Source: Thermoanaerobaculia bacterium
GTDB lineage: Bacteria; Acidobacteriota; Thermoanaerobaculia; Multivoradales; JAHZIX01
NCBI GenBank assembly: GCA_027069135.1
Contig: JALXFE010000489.1
Coordinates: 1-39,810 of the forward strand
Direction of reading: 5' to 3'
DNA length: 39,810 nucleotides
Below are positions 3,654 to 27,818 of the stretch, one piece after another (within the stretch, counting starts at the first letter, position 1; each line of letters starts with the position of its first letter). A program made the position numbers and the translations under genes. The notes under the pieces are model-generated. The model worked only from the letters and a program-made list of their open reading frames with translations. It made no database searches and had not been told where the DNA came from.

Positions 3654-4331
3654 CTAGAGACAAAAGGGGAGCTCCTTTCCGATCAGGTCGTTGAATACGG
3701 GCTTCAGGGCGTCAGCGACCTCCCCTTTGATCGCGTCCCCAAAAAGCACGTCGATCAGATCGATCAAGGGTTGCAGGAACGAGTTGAAGATCCCCAGGCC
3801 GTCGATCTCCACCTTGATGTCGTCGTAGTCGAGACTAAGGCTCTTGACCTTGAGTGCAGTGAAGCACGAGCTGCCGACCGAGAGCTCGGCGGTGTAGGTC
3901 AGGTTGCCCTGTCCGGTCACTCCCTTGGCGGTGGCCTTGCCCGAGATTCCAATGCTCTCTTTGACCACGCCGCATTCGGCGCTCACGCTGCCGCCAATCT
4001 TGGCGGAGAGGCTCGAGGACAGCTTCGCGGCTAGCTTCATGGTGCCCGTCACTGTCGTTTCTCCCGAGCTCTCCATGGACTCGACGGTGAGTGACTGGAT
4101 CACCAGAGAACTGAGCCCCTTCATATTCTTGATGTTGTACTTTGCCTTGACCTTCGCTGTGCAGATCCCTAGGTTGATCTTGCCGAGAGTCTCTTTTCCT
4201 GAGAGAACCTCGTCCCAGGGGTCTAGTCCGGCGTCCTCGATGTAGGTGGGCAGGCTGGCATTGAGGATGGGCAGGAGCTTCTCGATCAACGCGTTCAGGG
4301 TCTCTTCGATCCCGTCTGTCTTGGCAGTCAT
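3654..4331 (-). CDS. TULIP/takeout (JHBP)-like lipid-binding protein candidate
   Basis: This 225-residue protein has no signal peptide. An N-terminal amphipathic helix (about residues 8-30, ALIEKLLPILNASLP) is followed by alternating beta strands rich in Val, Ser, Thr and Gly. Two of these resemble the animal takeout pattern: VKAKYNIKNMKGLSSLVIQSL, then strands of the G-x-G-x-L-T-Y type. It ends in a C-terminal amphipathic helix (about 185-220, LQPLIDLIDVLFGDAI then ADALKPVFNDLI). The order helix, long twisted sheet, helix fits the TULIP superfamily, whose members carry lipids or hydrophobic ligands in an elongated tunnel. Two Cys residues (CGVV, SSCF) are notable. ATG 4331 has AAGGA upstream; the ATG at 4355 lacks a site. 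It is the first gene after a sigma-54-type promoter and precedes the DyP pair. Fold assignment is by eye and needs structural confirmation. Confidence 0.4.
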   Translation of the reverse strand: MTAKTDGIEETLNALIEKLLPILNASLPTYIEDAGLDPWDEVLSGKETLGKINLGICTAKVKAKYNIKNMKGLSSLVIQSLTVESMESSGETTVTGTMKLAAKLSSSLSAKIGGSVSAECGVVKESIGISGKATAKGVTGQGNLTYTAELSVGSSCFTALKVKSLSLDYDDIKVEIDGLGIFNSFLQPLIDLIDVLFGDAIKGEVADALKPVFNDLIGKELPFCL

Positions 4332-4495
4332 GGTTCCGTTTCCTTTTTGGATCATTGTCGGCAGGTCGTGATTACGCTCTCGTCTTCGCGGATGGGCCTC
4401 GTACGGTTCCTCTTCGGTGTCAGTTTCAGCGGCGACGGCCGCCGCGTGGACTCACCGTTCGACATCCTGTCGGCGGGTTTGTACGGTCCTCTTCA

Positions 4496-4510
4496 GCAAA
4501 GGCCATGCCA
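4496..4510 (-). promoter_or_regulatory. Sigma-54 promoter candidate P3 (TULIP-DyP cassette)
   Basis: The minus-strand sequence is TGGCATGGCCTTTGC, one mismatch (C to T at the sixth position) from TGGCACG-N4-TTGC. The GG and GC dinucleotides are 10 bp apart as required. Transcription would begin near 4484, about 150 nt before the ATG at 4331. An inverted repeat lies 91.5 nt upstream (4594-4609). Confidence 0.6.
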
Positions 4511-4593: not shown

Positions 4594-4609
4594 CTATCCG
4601 ATTGGATAG
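4594..4609. promoter_or_regulatory. Inverted repeat, candidate activator site upstream of P3
   Basis: CTATCCGATTGGATAG is a perfect 6-bp dyad with a 4-bp spacer. Its centre is 91.5 nt upstream of the P3 element, the same distance as the dyad of P1. A 13/16 match (CTATTCCATCGGATAG) occurs in the leader of the porin gene at 24327-24342. Confidence 0.45.
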
Positions 4610-4843: not shown

Positions 4844-7360
<2,517 letters not shown>

Positions 7361-7465
7361 CAGCTTTTCTCCTCGGTTCGGCAACCTTTGAGGGTCGTCA
7401 GAAGCGGTCTCTCCGCTGTCCTGGTTCTTCTTCGGGGCATCAGCGTACTCAACCCGCGCCCTTTT

Positions 7466-7778: not shown

Positions 7779-8449
7779 TTACATCTCAACAGAACCCTCA
7801 TCCAGGATCGGTTTCGAACCGAAGCGCGGAATCCAGCGTGGCGTACCGCTGGCATAAAGAGCCCAAGCTTCACCGAGCTCTTCGGCAACTTCTCGCTCTT
7901 CACGCAGGGCCAGACGAACATAAACCGTTACCAGGACTGGGAACATCACGGCGGTTACGAGGGTAGGCCACTGAAGCAGAAAACCAGCCATGATCACGAT
8001 AAAGCCGATGGACTGAGGATGACGGACCGAGGCATACGGCCCGGCGGTCGCCAGAGTGCCGTCGCGCTGGGCTCGGTAGAGCACCCTCCATGCCGAGGCG
8101 AGTAGAACGAAGCCGGCCACGATCAGCACATTGCTCACGAGATGGATCGGATTCAGGTGAGGATTGCCTTCAAACCCTAGAAACTTGTACCAGATATGGC
8201 CCGCGTCATGAGTGAGAAAATCGACACCGGGATATTTCTTGGCGAGCCACCCGGAGAGTAAATAAATAGTCAGTGGAAAACCATACATCTCGGCAAAGAG
8301 CGCGATGATGAACGCGGAGAAGCTTCCGAAAGTCCTCCAGTCGCGCGGGGTCTTCGGCTTGAAAAAGCTGAAAGCGAAGATGATGAAGATGGCCGAGTTG
8401 ATGAATACGAGCAGCCACAGGCCATATGCCGGCATGTCCTGTCCATGGC

Positions 8450-8453
<4 letters not shown>
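7779..8453 (-). CDS. Isoprenylcysteine carboxyl methyltransferase (ICMT)-family membrane protein
   Basis: This 224-residue protein has four or five membrane segments (about 11-30, 44-66, 104-122, 150-178). The C-terminal half carries the SAM-binding signature of ICMT/phospholipid methyltransferase-like proteins: GPYASVRHPQ (138-147), the acidic REERE (184-188) and a Tyr...TPRW end (200-207). The usual chemistry is SAM-dependent methylation at the membrane interface, but bacterial members near metal-efflux genes have no known substrate. The start is GTG at 8453, overlapping the RND stop codon as GTGA, which implies translational coupling. A linker of about 45 residues with FLTHDAGH before the catalytic part is unexplained. 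Confidence 0.8.
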
Positions 8454-12316
<3,863 letters not shown>

Positions 12317-12351: not shown

Positions 12352-13764
12352 TCAATTCTTCTCGGCGCCGTGGGCGTGGCTTGGCGCCGGGCCACCGCCC
12401 TCGGGGTTCATCATGCTGGGCTTGGCCTGGATTTGGAGGGCGCTGTCGATCTTGAAGTTGCCGTTGACCACGACCAACTCGCCCTCGCGCAGGCCCTCTT
12501 CCACGACGTAATACCCCGCTGCCTTTGGCCCGAGGGTGACTTCGCGTCCTTCATAAACTCCTGGCTGGTCCGGAACCCGGACGTAGACCACAGCCCGCTT
12601 GCCGGTGAGCAGCGGTGCCGACGCCGGGATGACCAGCGGCGGCTCTTGCGACTGTGAGGCGTCGTCAACGTAGCCCAACGACTCGGCACTCACCAAGGGG
12701 TTGCCGCAGATCGGGCAGCGGCCGGGGTTTGAGCGCATGATCTCCGGATGCATGGGGCTGATCCACTTGCCTGCGAGGTCCGTGCTGGTCACTTTTCCTT
12801 CGGCGGTAAGTTGCGGCCGTACGACGGCACGCACGAACATTTCCGGCTTCAGCCGACCCTCACGATTCTCGACGTTTACCCGGACTTTGACGGTACGCGT
12901 CGCCGGATCGAGGACCGGGTCGATGAACGAGATCCTTCCCTCGAAGGGCTCACCGGGAAAGGCCTCGACCTCGATCCGGACTTCCTGGGCGTAGCGCAAC
13001 CAACCGAGATCCGATTCGTAGGCATCGAGTTGGACCCAGAGGTGGGACAGATCTGCGATGGTGTAGATCCGGCTGCCAGTATCGACGTACATGCCCTCCT
13101 GGGCGTTCTTATGGATCACGATGCCGCTCATCGGCGAGTAGATCGTCAGATGTTCTCGAGGTTTGCCACCGGCTTCGATCTCAGCGATCTGCTCGGGGGT
13201 CAGGCCCCAAAGGCGGAGCTTTTCGCGAGAGGTCTCGACCGTGGTCTTGACCCGTTCCCGCAGCACCGAGACATTGCTCCTCTCGAGGCTCTTCGCCGTC
13301 CGCAAGGCCTGGATCAGCTCTTCCTGGGCTGCCAGAAGCTCCGGGCTGTAGAGGTAGACCAGGTGATCACCCTTCTCGACCGGGGCGCCGGTGAAATCGA
13401 CGAAGAGCCGGTCCAGACGACCGGGGACGTAGGCGGTGATATAGGCGAGCCGGGTCTCGTCGTAGGTCACTTTTCCCACCATCCGGATCTCGACGCCGAC
13501 GAGCTTACGCTCGACGGGACGGGTCTGAATCTCCGCCAGCTTCTCGGCGGCCGGCGTCAGCCGAACGGCCCGCGGCCCGAGCCCCCCCGAAGCTTCGTGA
13601 GAGCCGTGGGCCCCGGCCCCTTGGGCCTCGCCGGACTGCTCGGCGCTCATCTCGACCGGGGTTTTCCCGCTGCCTGTCCCGGGCCCACCGCCACCGCGAA
13701 GGAGATAGCCGAGGACGAGGGCAGCTACGAACACGGCGGCGAAGGGAAATAGTTGCTTCTTCAT
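12352..13764 (-). CDS. CusB-type periplasmic adaptor with internal heavy-metal-binding module (system 1)
   Basis: This 470-residue protein links the inner-membrane RND pump to the TolC channel. An N-terminal membrane anchor (5-23) is followed by a Gly/Ser/His-rich linker, a barrel-sandwich half (about 100-140), an alpha-hairpin (140-195) and the second sandwich half (205-240, YSPMSGIVIHKNAQEGMYV). Beta-barrel and membrane-proximal parts follow. A heavy-metal-binding module, WISPMHPE...CPICGNPL (334-357), lies inside the C-terminal half rather than at the N-terminus, and its usual first Cys is Ser336. The ATG overlaps the stop of the TolC gene by 4 nt, and the RND gene starts 35 bp downstream. 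Copper delivery is inferred. Confidence 0.9.
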   Translation of the reverse strand: MKKQLFPFAAVFVAALVLGYLLRGGGGPGTGSGKTPVEMSAEQSGEAQGAGAHGSHEASGGLGPRAVRLTPAAEKLAEIQTRPVERKLVGVEIRMVGKVTYDETRLAYITAYVPGRLDRLFVDFTGAPVEKGDHLVYLYSPELLAAQEELIQALRTAKSLERSNVSVLRERVKTTVETSREKLRLWGLTPEQIAEIEAGGKPREHLTIYSPMSGIVIHKNAQEGMYVDTGSRIYTIADLSHLWVQLDAYESDLGWLRYAQEVRIEVEAFPGEPFEGRISFIDPVLDPATRTVKVRVNVENREGRLKPEMFVRAVVRPQLTAEGKVTSTDLAGKWISPMHPEIMRSNPGRCPICGNPLVSAESLGYVDDASQSQEPPLVIPASAPLLTGKRAVVYVRVPDQPGVYEGREVTLGPKAAGYYVVEEGLREGELVVVNGNFKIDSALQIQAKPSMMNPEGGGPAPSHAHGAEKN

Positions 13765-15134
13765 GGGCGAGTTCCTATCGTGGGTTTGGGATCTGCGATT
13801 CCCGGATCCGCCAAGGGTCGACCCGCGAGCATCTCTGCCTCGGCGAAGCGCTGCTCGCGATCGGCCACACCGCGCTCGAAGGAAAGCTGGAATTCCAGCA
13901 GCAGGCGCTGGGCGTCGATGACATTGAGGAAGTCTTCCTTGCCCGCTTCATAGCCCACCTGGGCGACCTCGAGGGACGCCTCCGCCAGGGGCACCAATGT
14001 GTCGCGAAAGAGGTCGATTTTCCGCTCAGCATCGTGGAATTTGAAGAGCACGAGCTTCAACCTTGCCTCGAGGGTGTTTTCGGCATCTTCTCGGAAGCCT
14101 CTTTGCGCCTCGCGACGCCTTCCGGCCTCGCGAACTCCGGCCCGATATTTCGATCGCCAGATCGGGACGCTGACCGAGACCTTCGCCACCAGGGGATCTC
14201 TTCCACTACCGGGCAGATTCGGGGCCAGGGCGCTACCGGTGTCGACCCAGTCGAGACCGACCTTGAAGTTGGGCCGGAAGTCCTTGCGAGCCAGCTCGAT
14301 GGCCTGCTCCTCCCGGGCGATCTCGAAATCGAGACGCCGTAGCTCCGGACTGTGCTCGGTCATCGCATCCAAGACCTCTTGGTCGTCGAGCTCGATCTCC
14401 CGAACCGGCAGGGCCTTCGGCCAAGGCACGGGGGCGTCAACGGGACGACCGAGGGCCCCGTTGAAACCTGCGATGATCGGTTCTCGGAGGGCCTCGAGGG
14501 TGCGTTGGCGATCATCGAGCTTACCCAACTCCACCTGTGCCTTGATCACCCCGGAAACCGGCGCGCCGACCATGAAGTTGGCCTGGGCAACACTCTCCAG
14601 GTGCTTCAAGAGAGAGATGTTGTCTTCGGTGATGGCGATTGCCCGAGCCAGGTAGTAGAGCTCGTAGTAGGCGTTCTTGACCTCGAAGAAGAGCCGGAGC
14701 TTGGCCGCCTGATACTGCTGCTCCGCTGCGTTGGCAGCCTCTGAGGCCACCGCGCTGCGCAGGCGCAGCTTGCTCAGCCAAGGAAAAACCTGAGCGATGC
14801 CGAGCCTCTGCTCTTGCGGCCCGACCCGGGTCTCCACCTCTTCGATGAAGTAGGCGTAGTTGAAGGTTGGATCCGGCAAGGTTCCCACCTGCTCAATCTT
14901 CTCGAGCGCTGCCTTAAAGCGATCGAAGGCCGCTTCGAGGCCCGGATTCGTGAGGGTGGCATAGAGGAGATAGTCTTCGAGCCGGGAGCTCTCGCCGAGG
15001 ACGGGGAGGTGGGGCTCGTCCGGGTCACCGGGAGGCACCGCCTCGAGGAGGCTCGGATGAAGCCATCCGATTCCGAAAAGGATGATCAGAAGCATGCCGA
15101 ACCGGACGGGGATCGAGTGAGAAATCTTGAACAT
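13761..15134 (-). CDS. CusC/TolC-type outer-membrane channel (system 1)
   Basis: This 457-residue protein has an N-terminal hydrophobic signal segment (about 11-31). Two TolC half-repeats follow, each built of long charged helices around beta segments (PDPTFNYAYF near 97-106; VAKVSVSVPIWRSKY near 313-327). It should trimerise in the outer membrane as the exit duct for the adjacent adaptor and RND pump. The order TolC, adaptor, RND with 4-nt and 35-bp junctions is a standard CusCBA/CzcCBA operon. No lipobox Cys is evident, so the mature N-terminus is probably not acylated. Confidence 0.9.
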   Translation of the reverse strand: MFKISHSIPVRFGMLLIILFGIGWLHPSLLEAVPPGDPDEPHLPVLGESSRLEDYLLYATLTNPGLEAAFDRFKAALEKIEQVGTLPDPTFNYAYFIEEVETRVGPQEQRLGIAQVFPWLSKLRLRSAVASEAANAAEQQYQAAKLRLFFEVKNAYYELYYLARAIAITEDNISLLKHLESVAQANFMVGAPVSGVIKAQVELGKLDDRQRTLEALREPIIAGFNGALGRPVDAPVPWPKALPVREIELDDQEVLDAMTEHSPELRRLDFEIAREEQAIELARKDFRPNFKVGLDWVDTGSALAPNLPGSGRDPLVAKVSVSVPIWRSKYRAGVREAGRRREAQRGFREDAENTLEARLKLVLFKFHDAERKIDLFRDTLVPLAEASLEVAQVGYEAGKEDFLNVIDAQRLLLEFQLSFERGVADREQRFAEAEMLAGRPLADPGIADPKPTIGTRP

Positions 15135-15171: not shown

Positions 15172-15510
15172 TCAGAGCGCCTGGGGGCCTTCGCCTCCGT
15201 TACGGATCTTTATCGCCCGATCGACAGGGGTGACGAATACGATGCCGTCTCCGCCGTAGCCGGTCCGTGCCGAGTCGACGATGACTTGTAATAGCCCATC
15301 GACCTGCTCCGCACGGCAGACGATCTCCACCTTGCAGGCCTCCTCAGTCTTGGAGAGGTCGTTGGGGGCGAGACCTGAGAGATGCCGTTGGTAGCCATAG
15401 CCCACCCCGTGGACCTGAGACACCGTGACGCCGGGGGCTCCAGCCTTCCGGAGCCTCGGCAGGACGTCGTCGATCTTGCGGGTTCGTACAAAGGCTTTGA
15501 TGAGTTTCAT
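15172..15510 (-). CDS. PII-like signalling protein associated with metal efflux
   Basis: This 112-residue protein has the PII fold pattern. The start MKLIKAFVRTRKIDDVLPRLRKAG matches the first strand and helix. The C-terminal signature TGYGGDGIVFVTPVDRAIKIRNG matches the PII B/C-loop region that binds nucleotide. The T-loop region (about 36-55, GVGYGYQRHLSGLAPNDLS) lacks the usual uridylylated Tyr context, so GlnD-type control is not supported. A distinct PII group (described as PII-NG) occurs beside heavy-metal RND operons, and this gene lies 37 bp upstream of the TolC gene of CusCBA system 1. It may sense nucleotide or metal state for the efflux system; this is inference. ATG 15510 has AGGAG at good spacing. 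Confidence 0.85.
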   Translation of the reverse strand: MKLIKAFVRTRKIDDVLPRLRKAGAPGVTVSQVHGVGYGYQRHLSGLAPNDLSKTEEACKVEIVCRAEQVDGLLQVIVDSARTGYGGDGIVFVTPVDRAIKIRNGGEGPQAL

Positions 15511-15553: not shown

Positions 15554-15874
15554 TCATCGAGACAGATCTGCCACGACCCTCTCGATCTCTTTTTTCACGG
15601 AGCTGAGCAGGGCGGGCGTTACTTCGCTTCCTTCGAGATGAGTCGCGGCCGTGAGGTAGACGTCGAAGGCCAGTCTCTGGAGGTCCGCCGCCGCCCGCTT
15701 GCCGGAACCGAGGCCGAGTCCGCCGAACTCGTCGAGGGATTGGTGAAGTCGCCCGTAGAGGCCGGCCACAAACTGACGGTTCACGCCGTCGGCTCCAAGG
15801 TGCCGTCGGAGCGTGGGTTCGAGGGCTTTCATGAGATAACGGGTCTGCCGTTCGATGTCCGTACCTTGTCTCAT
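15554..15874 (-). CDS. Uncharacterised small helical protein
   Basis: This 106-residue protein has no signal peptide, membrane segment or Cys. It appears all-helical and charged: ERQTRYLMKALEPTLRRHLG, then NRQFVAGLYGRLHQSLDEF, then a long C-terminal helix. I do not recognise the family. I use ATG 15874 rather than the longer frame to 16048, because a sigma-54-type promoter sits at 15901-15915 inside that extension; the ribosome binding site (GGTG) is weak. It is the first gene of the P2 operon, 43 bp before the PII-like gene. An alternative ATG is at residue 15. Confidence 0.55.
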   Translation of the reverse strand: MRQGTDIERQTRYLMKALEPTLRRHLGADGVNRQFVAGLYGRLHQSLDEFGGLGLGSGKRAAADLQRLAFDVYLTAATHLEGSEVTPALLSSVKKEIERVVADLSR

Positions 15875-15900
15875 TGCGGTTCTACACCCAGATTGTGGAA

Positions 15901-15915
15901 GCAAGGAACGCGCCA
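15901..15915 (-). promoter_or_regulatory. Sigma-54 promoter candidate P2 (PII-CusCBA1-CopA operon)
   Basis: The minus-strand sequence is TGGCGCGTTCCTTGC, one mismatch (A to G at the fifth position) from TGGCACG-N4-TTGC, followed by TT. Transcription would start near 15890, only about 16 nt before the ATG at 15874. An inverted repeat is centred 93.5 nt upstream (16001-16016). Confidence 0.65.
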
Positions 15916-15998: not shown

Positions 15999-16016
15999 CT
16001 CTTGCGCTCTTGCAAG
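15999..16016. promoter_or_regulatory. Inverted repeat, candidate activator site upstream of P2
   Basis: CTCTTGCGCTCTTGCAAG contains the dyad CTTGC-N6-GCAAG. It shares CTCTTGCG-N4-TGCRAG with the dyad upstream of P1 (24492-24509), at nearly the same distance from the promoter. Confidence 0.5.
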
Positions 16017-16077
16017 CCAGACCGGCCGGCGTACTCGCGGCGATGCACGCTCCAGATCTACCATCCCGGTGGTGTCT

Positions 16078-16143: not shown

Positions 16144-16617
16144 CTATTTCTTGGCCGAGGCGACGAAGAGGTCTGAGCGAACTCTGCTCCTGCGCCCCAG
16201 ATAGATGATCAGGGGCGGCAACAGCAACCATTGCAGGAGCGGTGAAACGCCCCACACTCCCAGTCGAGGCATAGCTGGGGCATATGCCCAGGCGCCCACG
16301 ACCTCGGTGTTGAGCCATTCGCTGAAGGCTGTGTAACCGAAACCGAGGGAGGTGAAGATGGCGATTGCCGGCAGAATCGACTTCCTCCGCCACCAATCGC
16401 GGCCGTGAAAGAGGATTGCCGTGATCCAGAAGGCACCTAATAGGATCAATAGGTCACCGCCCGTGCAGTGGAGGCGGGTCCACAAGACATGGCCCGCACC
16501 GAGCCGGTGGTCGGTGTAAAGGGGGGATTGGGCGAATTCCCAGAAGCCGTTGAGCAGCGCACCCCAACCGATCAGTTTCAGCTCCGTCCGCAATACCCGG
16601 AAACTCTTAATATTCAA
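16144..16617 (-). CDS. Uncharacterised small membrane protein with conserved His/Trp/Glu motifs
   Basis: This 157-residue protein has four likely membrane segments. Motifs include GALLNGFWEFAQSPLYT (about 18-34), LHCTGGDLLILLGAFW (about 48-63), GYTAFSEWLNT and WAYAPAMP (about 88-115), and SPLLQWLLLPPLI. I recognise this as a recurring family of small membrane proteins in metal-related gene islands but know no function. No good ATG exists. The TTG at 16617-16615 overlaps the TGA of the upstream gene (TTGA), suggesting coupled translation; this start is a proposal, and the longer frame to 16830 would run through the preceding gene. It is the last gene of the P1 electron-transfer operon. Confidence 0.6.
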   Translation of the reverse strand: MNIKSFRVLRTELKLIGWGALLNGFWEFAQSPLYTDHRLGAGHVLWTRLHCTGGDLLILLGAFWITAILFHGRDWWRRKSILPAIAIFTSLGFGYTAFSEWLNTEVVGAWAYAPAMPRLGVWGVSPLLQWLLLPPLIIYLGRRSRVRSDLFVASAKK

Positions 16618-24395: not shown

Positions 24396-24410
24396 GCAAG
24401 GCCCGTGCCA
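24396..24410 (-). promoter_or_regulatory. Sigma-54 promoter P1 (porin-cytochrome-bc operon), exact consensus
   Basis: The minus-strand sequence TGGCACGGGCCTTGC is an exact match to TGGCACG-N4-TTGC and is followed by T. Transcription should begin near 24384, giving a leader of about 88 nt before the porin ATG at 24296. It lies in the gap right after the gene for an NtrC-type sigma-54 activator. A dyad is centred 91.5 nt upstream (24494-24509). Confidence 0.85.
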
Positions 24411-24491: not shown

Positions 24492-24509
24492 CTCTTGCGA
24501 ATCTGCGAG
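24492..24509. promoter_or_regulatory. Inverted repeat, candidate activator site upstream of P1
   Basis: CTCTTGCGAATCTGCGAG contains CTTGC-N6-GCGAG, an imperfect dyad. It shares CTCTTGCG-N4-TGCRAG with the site upstream of P2. Its centre lies 91.5 nt from the P1 element, typical for an enhancer-binding protein. Confidence 0.5.
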
Positions 24510-24566
24510 TCGATGCGGGAGCAAATCTTTCAGCGATGCAAGTCCCAAGGTGATCGGCAGAGACCG

Positions 24567-24585
24567 TGAGGCCGTCACGGCCTCA
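24567..24585 (-). terminator. Hairpin at the response-regulator stop codon
   Basis: TGAGGCCG-TCA-CGGCCTCA is a perfect 8-bp stem with a 3-nt loop, GC-rich, and it includes the TGA stop of the regulator gene. No T-run follows, so it may be a weak terminator or an mRNA 3'-end stabiliser separating the regulator operon from P1. Confidence 0.45.
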
Positions 24586-25935
24586 GTCTGCTGTGGAGTC
24601 GAGTCGCTGCAATCGGCGGTAGAGGGTCGATGCGTTGATACCCAAGAGGCGCGCCGCTTCCTCTCGGTTGCCGCCGGTGGACTCAAGCACCCGGCGGATG
24701 TGCTCCCCCTCGTAGGCCCGGACGGCGCAGCGGAGATCCTGCGAAAGCTCACCGCTTCCTCCGGAGCCGGTGAGCTCTTGGGGAAGATCCTCGAGGGCCA
24801 GACAAGTCCCGTCGGTGAGAAGCACCGCCCTTTCGAGCGCATTTTCAAGCTCACGGACATTTCCCGGCCATTCGGCGCTCATCAGCGCTCGCAGCGCCGG
24901 GTCGTCAACGCCGAGCACGCGCTTCTTGAGGCGTGCATTGATCCGCGCGAGGAGATGTTCGATCAAGCCGGGGATATCCTCGCGGTGCTCGCGCAGTGGC
25001 GGCAAAGGGATCTCCAGAACCCGGATGCGGTAATAGAGATCCTGGCGAAAACGCTCGGCTCGAACCTCCAGGTGCAGATTTCGGTGCGTTGCGGTAATCA
25101 GCCGCAACCGGATGCGGATAGGTCGAGTGCCCCCTACCGGCATGACCTCGCTCTGCTCCAGAGCGCGCAGCAGTTTAGGTTGCAACTCAAGGGGGAGCTC
25201 GCCGATCTCGTCGAGGAAAAGTGTCCCGCCGCTGGCCAGCTCGAACATGCCAGGTTTGTCGCGGATCGCACCGCTGAACGCGCCCTTTCGGTAGCCGAAG
25301 AGTTCACTCTCCATCAGCTCTCGGGGTAGAGCCGCGCAGTTGACCGCCACGAAGGGGGCGTCCGGTCCCTTGCCGAGTTCATGAATCGCTCGTGCGACGA
25401 CTTCTTTGCCGGTGCCGGTCTCGCCGGTCACCAACACCGTGGTATCAGTTTTCGCGACACGGTGGATCAATCTCTTGACCTCTCCCATCGCCGGACCATC
25501 GCCGACCAGCCGTGTCCCTTCATCCGCCCGGGATACGTTCCGACGTAGGAAACGCAGCTCACGCATCAGAAGGCGCCGTTCCAGGCAACGCCGGACCCGG
25601 ACCAAGAGCTCCTCATGCTGGAGGGGCTTGAGAAGATAGTCTGCCGCTCCCTTGCGGAAGGCTTGGACGGCGCTATCCAACGAGCCATACGCCGTGACCA
25701 GAAAAACAGGAACTTCCGGGTGCTCGACCGCGAAGTGATGGATCACTTCCACACCGTCGATGCCCGGCATCGACAGGTCACACAGCACTAGATCTGGTTC
25801 CTCCTTATCGGCGGCCTTGAGGCCCTCCTCGCCGGTCGCAGCGGTTCGGCAGTGGTATCCCTCTTCCCGCAACAGGCTTGCCAAGTCTTCGCGAAAGAGA
25901 TCTTCGTCATCGACGATCAGAATTTGAGCCGTCAT
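24583..25935 (-). CDS. NtrC-family sigma-54-dependent response regulator
   Basis: This 450-residue protein has a receiver domain (1-120) with phospho-acceptor Asp53 and acidic pocket Asp9/Asp10-Glu11. The AAA+ domain (about 143-370) has Walker A GETGTGKE (171-178) and Walker [14 protein letters not shown] (236-248), and the Arg-finger region follows. A Fis-type helix-turn-helix ends the protein ([20 protein letters not shown]). The sigma-54-contacting loop reads GAFSGA (218-223) instead of GAFTGA, a conservative Ser for Thr change. It shares 1 nt with the kinase stop codon (TGATG), so the two are cotranslated partners. The gene lies just upstream of promoter P1 and probably activates it, and P2/P3 by motif similarity. 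Confidence 0.95.
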
Positions 25936-27818
25936 CAGAGGACCCTCGTTGTTTCTTCGCCATCGGAGAATCCGACGCTTTCCCAGGGTAGAGAAATCGT
26001 GAAGCAGGTCCCCTCACCGGGCTCACTGCGTACATGAATGTCCCCGCCATGGGCTTCGATAAGGCTTTTCGAAAGGGAGAGTCCCAAGCCGACCCCCTGC
26101 TTCTTGGTAGTGAAAAAGGGCTCGAAGATTCGCTTCCTGACCTCCCGCGTGAGGCCCAGTCCCGAGTCTCTGACCTTGAGTTTGATGCCGCTGTCGGTGG
26201 AAGTCGAGGCAATGTGGACCGTTCCCCCGCTCGGCATGGATTCCACCGCGTTGAGAAGCAAGTTGACGAGGACCTGGACAAGTTGATCGCGTACCCCCCG
26301 GATCTCTGTTGAAATCCCGGACAAGTCTCGATCGAACGTTACATCTCTCGCTCTACGGTCGAGGCGAATCAGGTTCACCGCTTCCTTGACCATGTCGTCC
26401 ACCTTGCAGACTTCCCACTCCGCCGAACGGTTGCGGGAGAAGAGCGAGACGTTTCTCACTGTGCGCCCAATTCGCTCGACATGATTCTTGAGCAGGGCGA
26501 GACTCTCGTCGAGGAATGCAGGATCGCGTTGGCGCTCGAGGCGTTTCAGACGTGTGGTAAGAGAAGCTAGAGGGTTACCGATCTCGTGGGCCAGTCCCGC
26601 TGCGAGCTGCCCCAGGAGTGAGAGCTTGCCGGCATGGACTGTTTCGGCCTCGAGGGCCTTGCGCCGAGTGATGTCTTCGACCAACTCGACGACCTGGAAA
26701 ACTCGGCCGTCCTCGTCTTTCACCGGTTCTGCAATATGTCGTAGGTATCGCTCACTACCATCATCTCCGACCACGCGACGCTCTGCCTCGGTAGGTCGGC
26801 CATCCTCCAACACTTGACTCGCAACACATTGTGGGCACCCGCCCTCAGTTCGAAACAGAGGACAGGCGTTGCCACGAACCTCCGGGCGCCAGCTCAACCA
26901 TCGCGCCGCTCGCGGGCTGAACCACTGGACCCTCAGCCCTGGTTCGATGACTAGCATCCCCATTCCGGCCGCGTGGACTGTTCCTTCGAGCCGCTCGTGT
27001 TCGAGGATCGCCTCCCGGGCCACCTTCGCCACTTCCTCCTGGCTGTCCCGCAATCGACCGCTTAGGAGGGATGTCAAATAGGACGCGACGAGCACCAGCA
27101 CGAGGAGCGAGAGACTCTTCCCAGCGATGAAGTTCGGGTCATAGGAAGCGTGGCTCAGACCCGCCGTAGGGACCTGCCCGTGGGCCAACTCGTTTCCGGG
27201 TCCCCCCTCGAGATGAGGAAAGAGCCCGAATGAGACATGCGGCAGCAAATGAAAAGCCTCGCCGATCACCAGCAGGCCGAACAGCAGGCAAGCTATCGCT
27301 GCGACGCCGAAGGCCGCTCGCCGGGGAAGAAGGATAGCCGCGACGATAACCGGGAAGACGTAGGCGAGATAGAGCGGGTTCTCGATCCCGCCGGAGGCGT
27401 TCAAGAGCCCCGTCAGTACTAGCAAATCGACCACGATCTGGATGCGTACCTGGCGCTCGGGATCAGACCGGCGCTCGATCAGCCGGCTAAAGATAGCGTT
27501 CGAAACCACGAGGACCAAGATCCACCCGAGGAGCCAAGGAAGGCTGGAGTAGGGAAGGAGCCCTGCGATCGGGATGGCGATTAGCACCAGGGTCACAATG
27601 GCGAAAGCGGCGGTCCAGCGCAGCTGTACCAGCCATCTCGCGTGTTGCAGAAGCCGAGATTCACGGTTCGGAAGCTGCATCGTGCCGGAGGGGCCCCGAG
27701 GCGGCGGAAAAGCCGGCCCCCGGAGCTTCCCCAGGCGCCACATTAAGAGGAAGACCAGAACGAGGGACAGGTAGATGCAACTGAGAAGTCGCAGCTGATG
27801 AAAGATCTCGGGGTTCAT
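25935..27818 (-). CDS. Membrane sensor histidine kinase with RegB-like membrane region and PAS domain
   Basis: This 627-residue protein has several N-terminal membrane helices (about 8-27, 68-110, 128-188, 236-253), with GGIENPL at 143-149. It resembles the GGxxNPF quinone-binding heptad of RegB/PrrB redox kinases. A PAS-like domain follows (275-385) with Cys319, Cys328 and Cys331 (CPLF...GGCPQC). The dimerisation/phosphotransfer helix has AHEIGNPLASL with His411. The ATPase domain follows, with N box, DSGLGL and GVGLGLSLSK motifs. The partner is the NtrC-type regulator whose start overlaps its stop. A redox (quinone) or thiol/metal signal is inferred from motifs only. AAGGA precedes ATG 27818. 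Confidence 0.93.
   Translation of the reverse strand: MNPEIFHQLRLLSCIYLSLVLVFLLMWRLGKLRGPAFPPPRGPSGTMQLPNRESRLLQHARWLVQLRWTAAFAIVTLVLIAIPIAGLLPYSSLPWLLGWILVLVVSNAIFSRLIERRSDPERQVRIQIVVDLLVLTGLLNASGGIENPLYLAYVFPVIVAAILLPRRAAFGVAAIACLLFGLLVIGEAFHLLPHVSFGLFPHLEGGPGNELAHGQVPTAGLSHASYDPNFIAGKSLSLLVLVLVASYLTSLLSGRLRDSQEEVAKVAREAILEHERLEGTVHAAGMGMLVIEPGLRVQWFSPRAARWLSWRPEVRGNACPLFRTEGGCPQCVASQVLEDGRPTEAERRVVGDDGSERYLRHIAEPVKDEDGRVFQVVELVEDITRRKALEAETVHAGKLSLLGQLAAGLAHEIGNPLASLTTRLKRLERQRDPAFLDESLALLKNHVERIGRTVRNVSLFSRNRSAEWEVCKVDDMVKEAVNLIRLDRRARDVTFDRDLSGISTEIRGVRDQLVQVLVNLLLNAVESMPSGGTVHIASTSTDSGIKLKVRDSGLGLTREVRKRIFEPFFTTKKQGVGLGLSLSKSLIEAHGGDIHVRSEPGEGTCFTISLPWESVGFSDGEETTRVL

Follow-up and report, generated by a model that had tools for sequence, protein, structure and literature searches.

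Which promoter drives the copper-type efflux genes in the window, by which we mean the whole 39,810-nucleotide stretch of Thermoanaerobaculia DNA analyzed here, and which activator would act on it? An earlier note on this DNA had singled out one candidate, a sigma-54 element lying on the coding strand at 15901-15915 and one mismatch away from the consensus. We call this element P2. Judging from comparisons with related genomes, we put a probability of roughly 0.85 on P2 being the sigma-54-dependent promoter of an operon encoding ORF106, a PII-like protein and the CusCBA1 pump, activated by the regulator encoded at 24583-25935 through a pair of tandem dyads.

The P2 element and the genes behind it

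The -24/-12 element TGGCGCGTTCCTTGC is present at 15901-15915 on the minus strand, the strand that encodes both the genes downstream and the large genes around the element. It differs from the consensus TGGCACGNNNNTTGC by an A-to-G mismatch in the -24 element, which counts against P2. Some 270 nt separate a membrane-protein open reading frame, which ends at 16144, from ORF106, and the element lies within this gap; the ATG of ORF106 (15874-15872) is 41 nt downstream of it. Because sigma-54 promoter geometry puts the C of GC at -12, transcription would start 12 nt after that base, near 15889 on the minus strand, and the predicted leader of about 15 nt agrees with the 16 nt or so claimed earlier. 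The window contains no Rfam element.

By itself, the consensus score of P2 would be weak rather than decisive evidence, because 0.72 such one-mismatch sites are expected per window, close to the 0.6 that the earlier note had estimated. Five sites with at most one mismatch are present, a count reached in 0 of 100 shuffles, and a site as good as P2 fell within the 110 nt before ORF106 in 0.075% of shuffles. It is comparison among genomes that settles the promoter call.

The element does lie directly upstream of the first gene of the operon, as had been claimed, although that gene is ORF106 (15554-15874, minus strand) and not the PII gene itself. ORF106 encodes a 106-aa companion protein and is conserved in six genomes. 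It has no strong ribosome-binding site and no Pfam or NCBIfam match; we regard it as a real gene because it recurs, at 48-73% identity, in five further genomes from the same order. The family is unnamed, with members of about 100 aa directly beside the regulator and distant forms in G008, G078, G093 and G117. A search of 396 genomes that sampled the phylum evenly returned only the window's own copy; the family is limited to a small number of genomes within the order and to the distant forms next to the regulator. In G008 (L094:230-2104), the ORF106-like frame reads without a stop into an outer-membrane-like protein, which may reflect either a fusion or a sequencing effect.

The genes that follow, all on the minus strand, encode a PII-like protein (15172-15510; PF00543, 1.8e-19) whose translated T-loop lacks the YRGAEY signature, the outer-membrane factor CusC1 (13761-15134; PF02321), the adaptor CusB1 with a heavy-metal-binding domain (12352-13764; PF16576 and PF19335), the RND pump CusA1 of the CusA/CzcA family (8450-12316; TIGR00914, over cut-off), an ICMT/PEMT-like membrane methyltransferase (7779-8453; PF04140) and CopA, a copper-type P-type ATPase (4844-7384; TIGR01511, over cut-off). 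Of the PII-CusCBA1-CopA operon proposed in the earlier note, the PII-CusCBA1 part does stand behind P2; the place of CopA in it seems less certain because about 395 nt separate CopA from the methyltransferase gene.

Beyond CopA, a third sigma-54-like element, TGGCATGGCCTTTGC, is found at 4496-4510 on the minus strand, 141 nt before an open reading frame at 3654-4355. At an enhancer-like distance from it lies a perfect palindrome, CTATCC-N4-GGATAG (4594-4609), which differs from the dyad described below and has a one-mismatch copy in the leader of another promoter, P1 (24327-24342). At up to two mismatches, this palindrome is not above chance.

A conserved core promoter with a tandem enhancer

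Orthologues of the regulator occur at 75-86% identity in four genomes (G024, G018, G002 and G029) and at 58-62% identity in nine more. ORF106 is encoded a short way downstream of the regulator in the first four and in G060, and GG-N10-GC precedes it in these five genomes as well as in one duplicated copy in G029. Loss of this motif from relatives had been named beforehand as an observation that would speak against the promoter; the motif is retained in every orthologous region. Its position is also kept: five of the six copies (G024, G018, G002, G029 and the G029 duplicate) have it 40-41 nt from the start of ORF106, and G060 has a different start geometry. Across the six genomes compared, which are few and mutually non-independent, pairwise identity is 78% inside the core element, versus 31% upstream and 36% downstream of it.

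In G029 the promoter has been duplicated together with its enhancer (L090:7730 and L090:7771-7908); the two copies share 83% identity over 205 nt, and the second precedes CusCBA1 and a broken copy of ORF106.

The alignment of relatives reveals two further conserved blocks. Both are palindromes of the form CTTGCA-N4-TGCAAG, set 32-33 bp apart, and the nearer one ends about 85 bp before the -24 element. At P2, the proximal dyad CTTGCAAGAGCGCAAG (16001-16016, minus strand) has one mismatch to this form and lies 101 nt upstream of the -24 element. The distal dyad CGTGCATCGCCGCGAG (16034-16049, minus strand) is degenerate, aligns with the distal dyads of the relatives and is 33 bp from the proximal one. 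These conserved positions, about 101 and 134 nt upstream, are inside the range of roughly 80-150 bp that is usual for the sites of sigma-54 activators.

The same arrangement is found at P1, a sigma-54 element with zero mismatches at 24396-24410 (minus strand) that would belong to the same regulon, with a proximal dyad CTCGCAGATTCGCAAG at 24494-24509 and a distal dyad CTTGCATCGCTGAAAG at 24527-24542, both on the minus strand. The dyad that had been described as shared between P1 and P2 is thus real, but each promoter carries two of them, 33 bp apart, and not one. We rejected the idea that P1 and P2 are DNA duplicates, as they have no significant DNA similarity.

When all 4096 hexamers were compared with a four-base spacer, 8 of the 14 regions adjoining the regulator or ORF106 had CTTGCA as an exact half-site and 1 had the next best hexamer, a count that is descriptive because the consensus came from part of the same regions. 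Genome-wide pattern searches provide the independent test of the dyad. Throughout the 7.2 Mb of the window's own genome, the tandem-dyad pattern matches at P1 and P2 only. Across 72 genomes, it matched the neighborhood of the regulator in four, adjoining the regulator in G008, G024 and G060 and lying at the duplicated promoter, 7.5 kb further on, in G029; five scattered matches fell elsewhere, and a reversed control pattern gave 17 matches in the same search. A strict pattern combining dyad and promoter matched twice in 148 genomes, each time beside an orthologue of the regulator. The dyad together with a sigma-54 element had 12 matches in 387 kb of regulator neighborhoods, compared to none in 1.43 Mb of control loci. 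Of the 12, two fall at other places in the G004 cluster, including one that heads its CusCBA operon, and another is about 900 nt upstream of the PII gene in G003.

The proposed activator and the alternatives to it

The regulator linked to these sites is an NtrC-type response regulator encoded at 24583-25935 on the minus strand, about 9 kb from P2, with receiver (PF00072), AAA+ sigma-54 activation (PF00158) and Fis-type HTH (PF02954) domains. The position of the phosphorylated aspartate is conserved, and the recognition region of the HTH is nearly invariant among the orthologues, which fits a single shared DNA site. The loop that contacts sigma-54 reads GAFSGA in this regulator and in five orthologues and GAFTGA in eight others. 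The departure from GAFTGA weighs against this regulator as the activator, although GAFSGA is listed among the loop variants expected to keep activity (PMC4641369). The GAFSGA form is common to the orthologue subgroup that has ORF106, and the more distant orthologues retain GAFTGA. Next to the regulator is the gene for its partner histidine kinase (25935-27818, minus strand), which combines a PilS-like membrane part (PF25323), a PAS domain (PF13426) and a kinase core (PF00512 and PF02518). The window's genome has one sigma-54 gene (PF04552, E 1.7e-65), in an open frame of 604 aa.

We propose that the kinase responds to a signal, most probably an excess of copper or silver, by phosphorylating the regulator, which would then bind the two CTTGCA-N4-TGCAAG dyads, three helical turns apart and about 101 and 134 bp upstream. 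From there it would remodel the sigma-54 RNA polymerase waiting at 15901-15915, and transcription would proceed from near 15889 into ORF106, the PII-like gene, CusCBA1 and possibly CopA. The same regulator would also drive P1. Gene content makes a copper or silver signal plausible: the cluster encodes CopA, CusA/CzcA pumps and a multicopper oxidase.

The best surviving alternative, which we consider unlikely, keeps P2 as a true sigma-54 promoter and assigns it to another enhancer-binding protein, such as the nitrogen regulator NtrC acting on the PII gene. PII genes are classic NtrC targets, which favors this reading, and the window's genome offers many NtrC-type regulators to choose from (86 first-look candidates). 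However, the dyad adjoins orthologues of the 24583-25935 regulator even in genomes (G008, G078, G093 and G117) with no PII found in the vicinity and a strongly diverged ORF106. The restriction of the tandem dyad to P1 and P2 in the window's genome also argues against a different activator.

Slightly less probable still is that P2 is a minor promoter and that most transcription of the operon reads through from P1 or from the membrane-protein gene upstream, or else comes from a sigma-70 promoter. The genes from P1 to CopA do all share one orientation, and a scan of the minus strand ahead of P2 revealed nothing resembling a terminator. Yet P2 has a gap of its own with a full conserved enhancer, relatives that lack the inserted genes keep the same promoter between the regulator and ORF106, and no sigma-70-like match was found near P2. 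Transcription from further upstream may be an additional input to the operon. That the P2 match is a chance occurrence can be dismissed for practical purposes despite the background rate of one-mismatch sites, as it is refuted by the position-specific conservation and by the conserved tandem enhancer at fixed spacing.

The inserted genes lie behind P1 (17254-24296) and form a putative respiratory cluster (cytochrome b, a Rieske protein, cytochromes c and an FeS-flavoprotein) along with a predicted barrel protein. The cluster sits between the regulator and ORF106 and is missing from that place in relatives; it was probably inserted there and came under the control of the same regulator. We looked for a relationship between this barrel protein and the barrel behind the G008 promoter, and rejected it when no link was found.

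Comparison with known metal-responsive systems

Experimental work on promoters is scarce in the phylum Acidobacteriota, and activation of P2 by the linked regulator is a precise prediction of regulation there, made at the level of sequence. By assigning a definite activator and enhancer to a PII-like gene beside a metal pump, the prediction opens the role of PII-like proteins in metal efflux to a direct test. It also illustrates how comparison can turn a motif call with a single mismatch, made on raw sequence, into a firm promoter assignment. The enhancer sequence, the PII-like/RND target, the subgroup of activators with GAFSGA and the family of ORF106 companion proteins look undescribed. A literature search that missed most subscription titles returned no paper on sigma-54 enhancers of Acidobacteriota, which is weak evidence of absence. 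More tentatively, the locus could represent a separate Acidobacteriota class of sigma-54 metal-stress circuit, in which a PilS-like kinase and a GAFSGA regulator use a private CTTGCA-N4-TGCAAG tandem enhancer beside a PII-like metal sensor, with the undescribed ORF106 acting on the circuit itself.

Among known systems, the two-component system CorSR of Myxococcus xanthus, with its copper operon curA, comes closest. Its regulator has the same receiver, sigma-54 activation and Fis-type HTH domains (PF00072, PF00158 and PF02954), and it is likewise linked to a multicopper oxidase and a CopA ATPase, in addition to a cytochrome c-like protein (PMC3707914). Four putative sigma-54 promoters have been predicted ahead of target genes in the M. 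xanthus copper cluster, and neither binding sites nor inverted repeats turned up when the main text of that paper was searched (PMC3707914). We do not class the window system as CorSR because kinase architecture and targets differ. CorS combines a periplasmic sensor and HAMP with a single transmembrane segment, whereas the window kinase is PilS-like with PAS and has no HAMP match, and the curA operon lacks the PII-like gene and the CusCBA pump that the window operon contains.

The pairing of a PII-family gene with a metal pump recalls PII-NG, in which a divergent PII-family gene shares an operon with the RND metal pump CzcABC, for example GSU2134 of Geobacter sulfurreducens (PMC7726332). The window's PII-family gene, a PII-NG candidate, similarly adjoins CusCBA1 and lacks the classical T-loop signature. 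The Geobacter operon differs in being reported as Fur-linked and cobalt-induced, with no sigma-54 control mentioned (PMC7726332).

ZraSR, which responds to zinc and lead, is also a metal-related sigma-54 two-component system, and the window regulator scores against the ZraR model, but at 374 bits it is far below the equivalog cut-off of 760 bits. The enhancer layout has a counterpart in the NmpR regulon of M. xanthus, where several operons are activated through pairs of NtrC-type dyads that lie upstream of a sigma-54 element (PMC11841059). NmpR answers to another signal, and its consensus, GCGCA-N5-TGCGC, differs from the CTTGCA-N4-TGCAAG dyad of the window. Taken as a whole, the design of the circuit is a familiar one.
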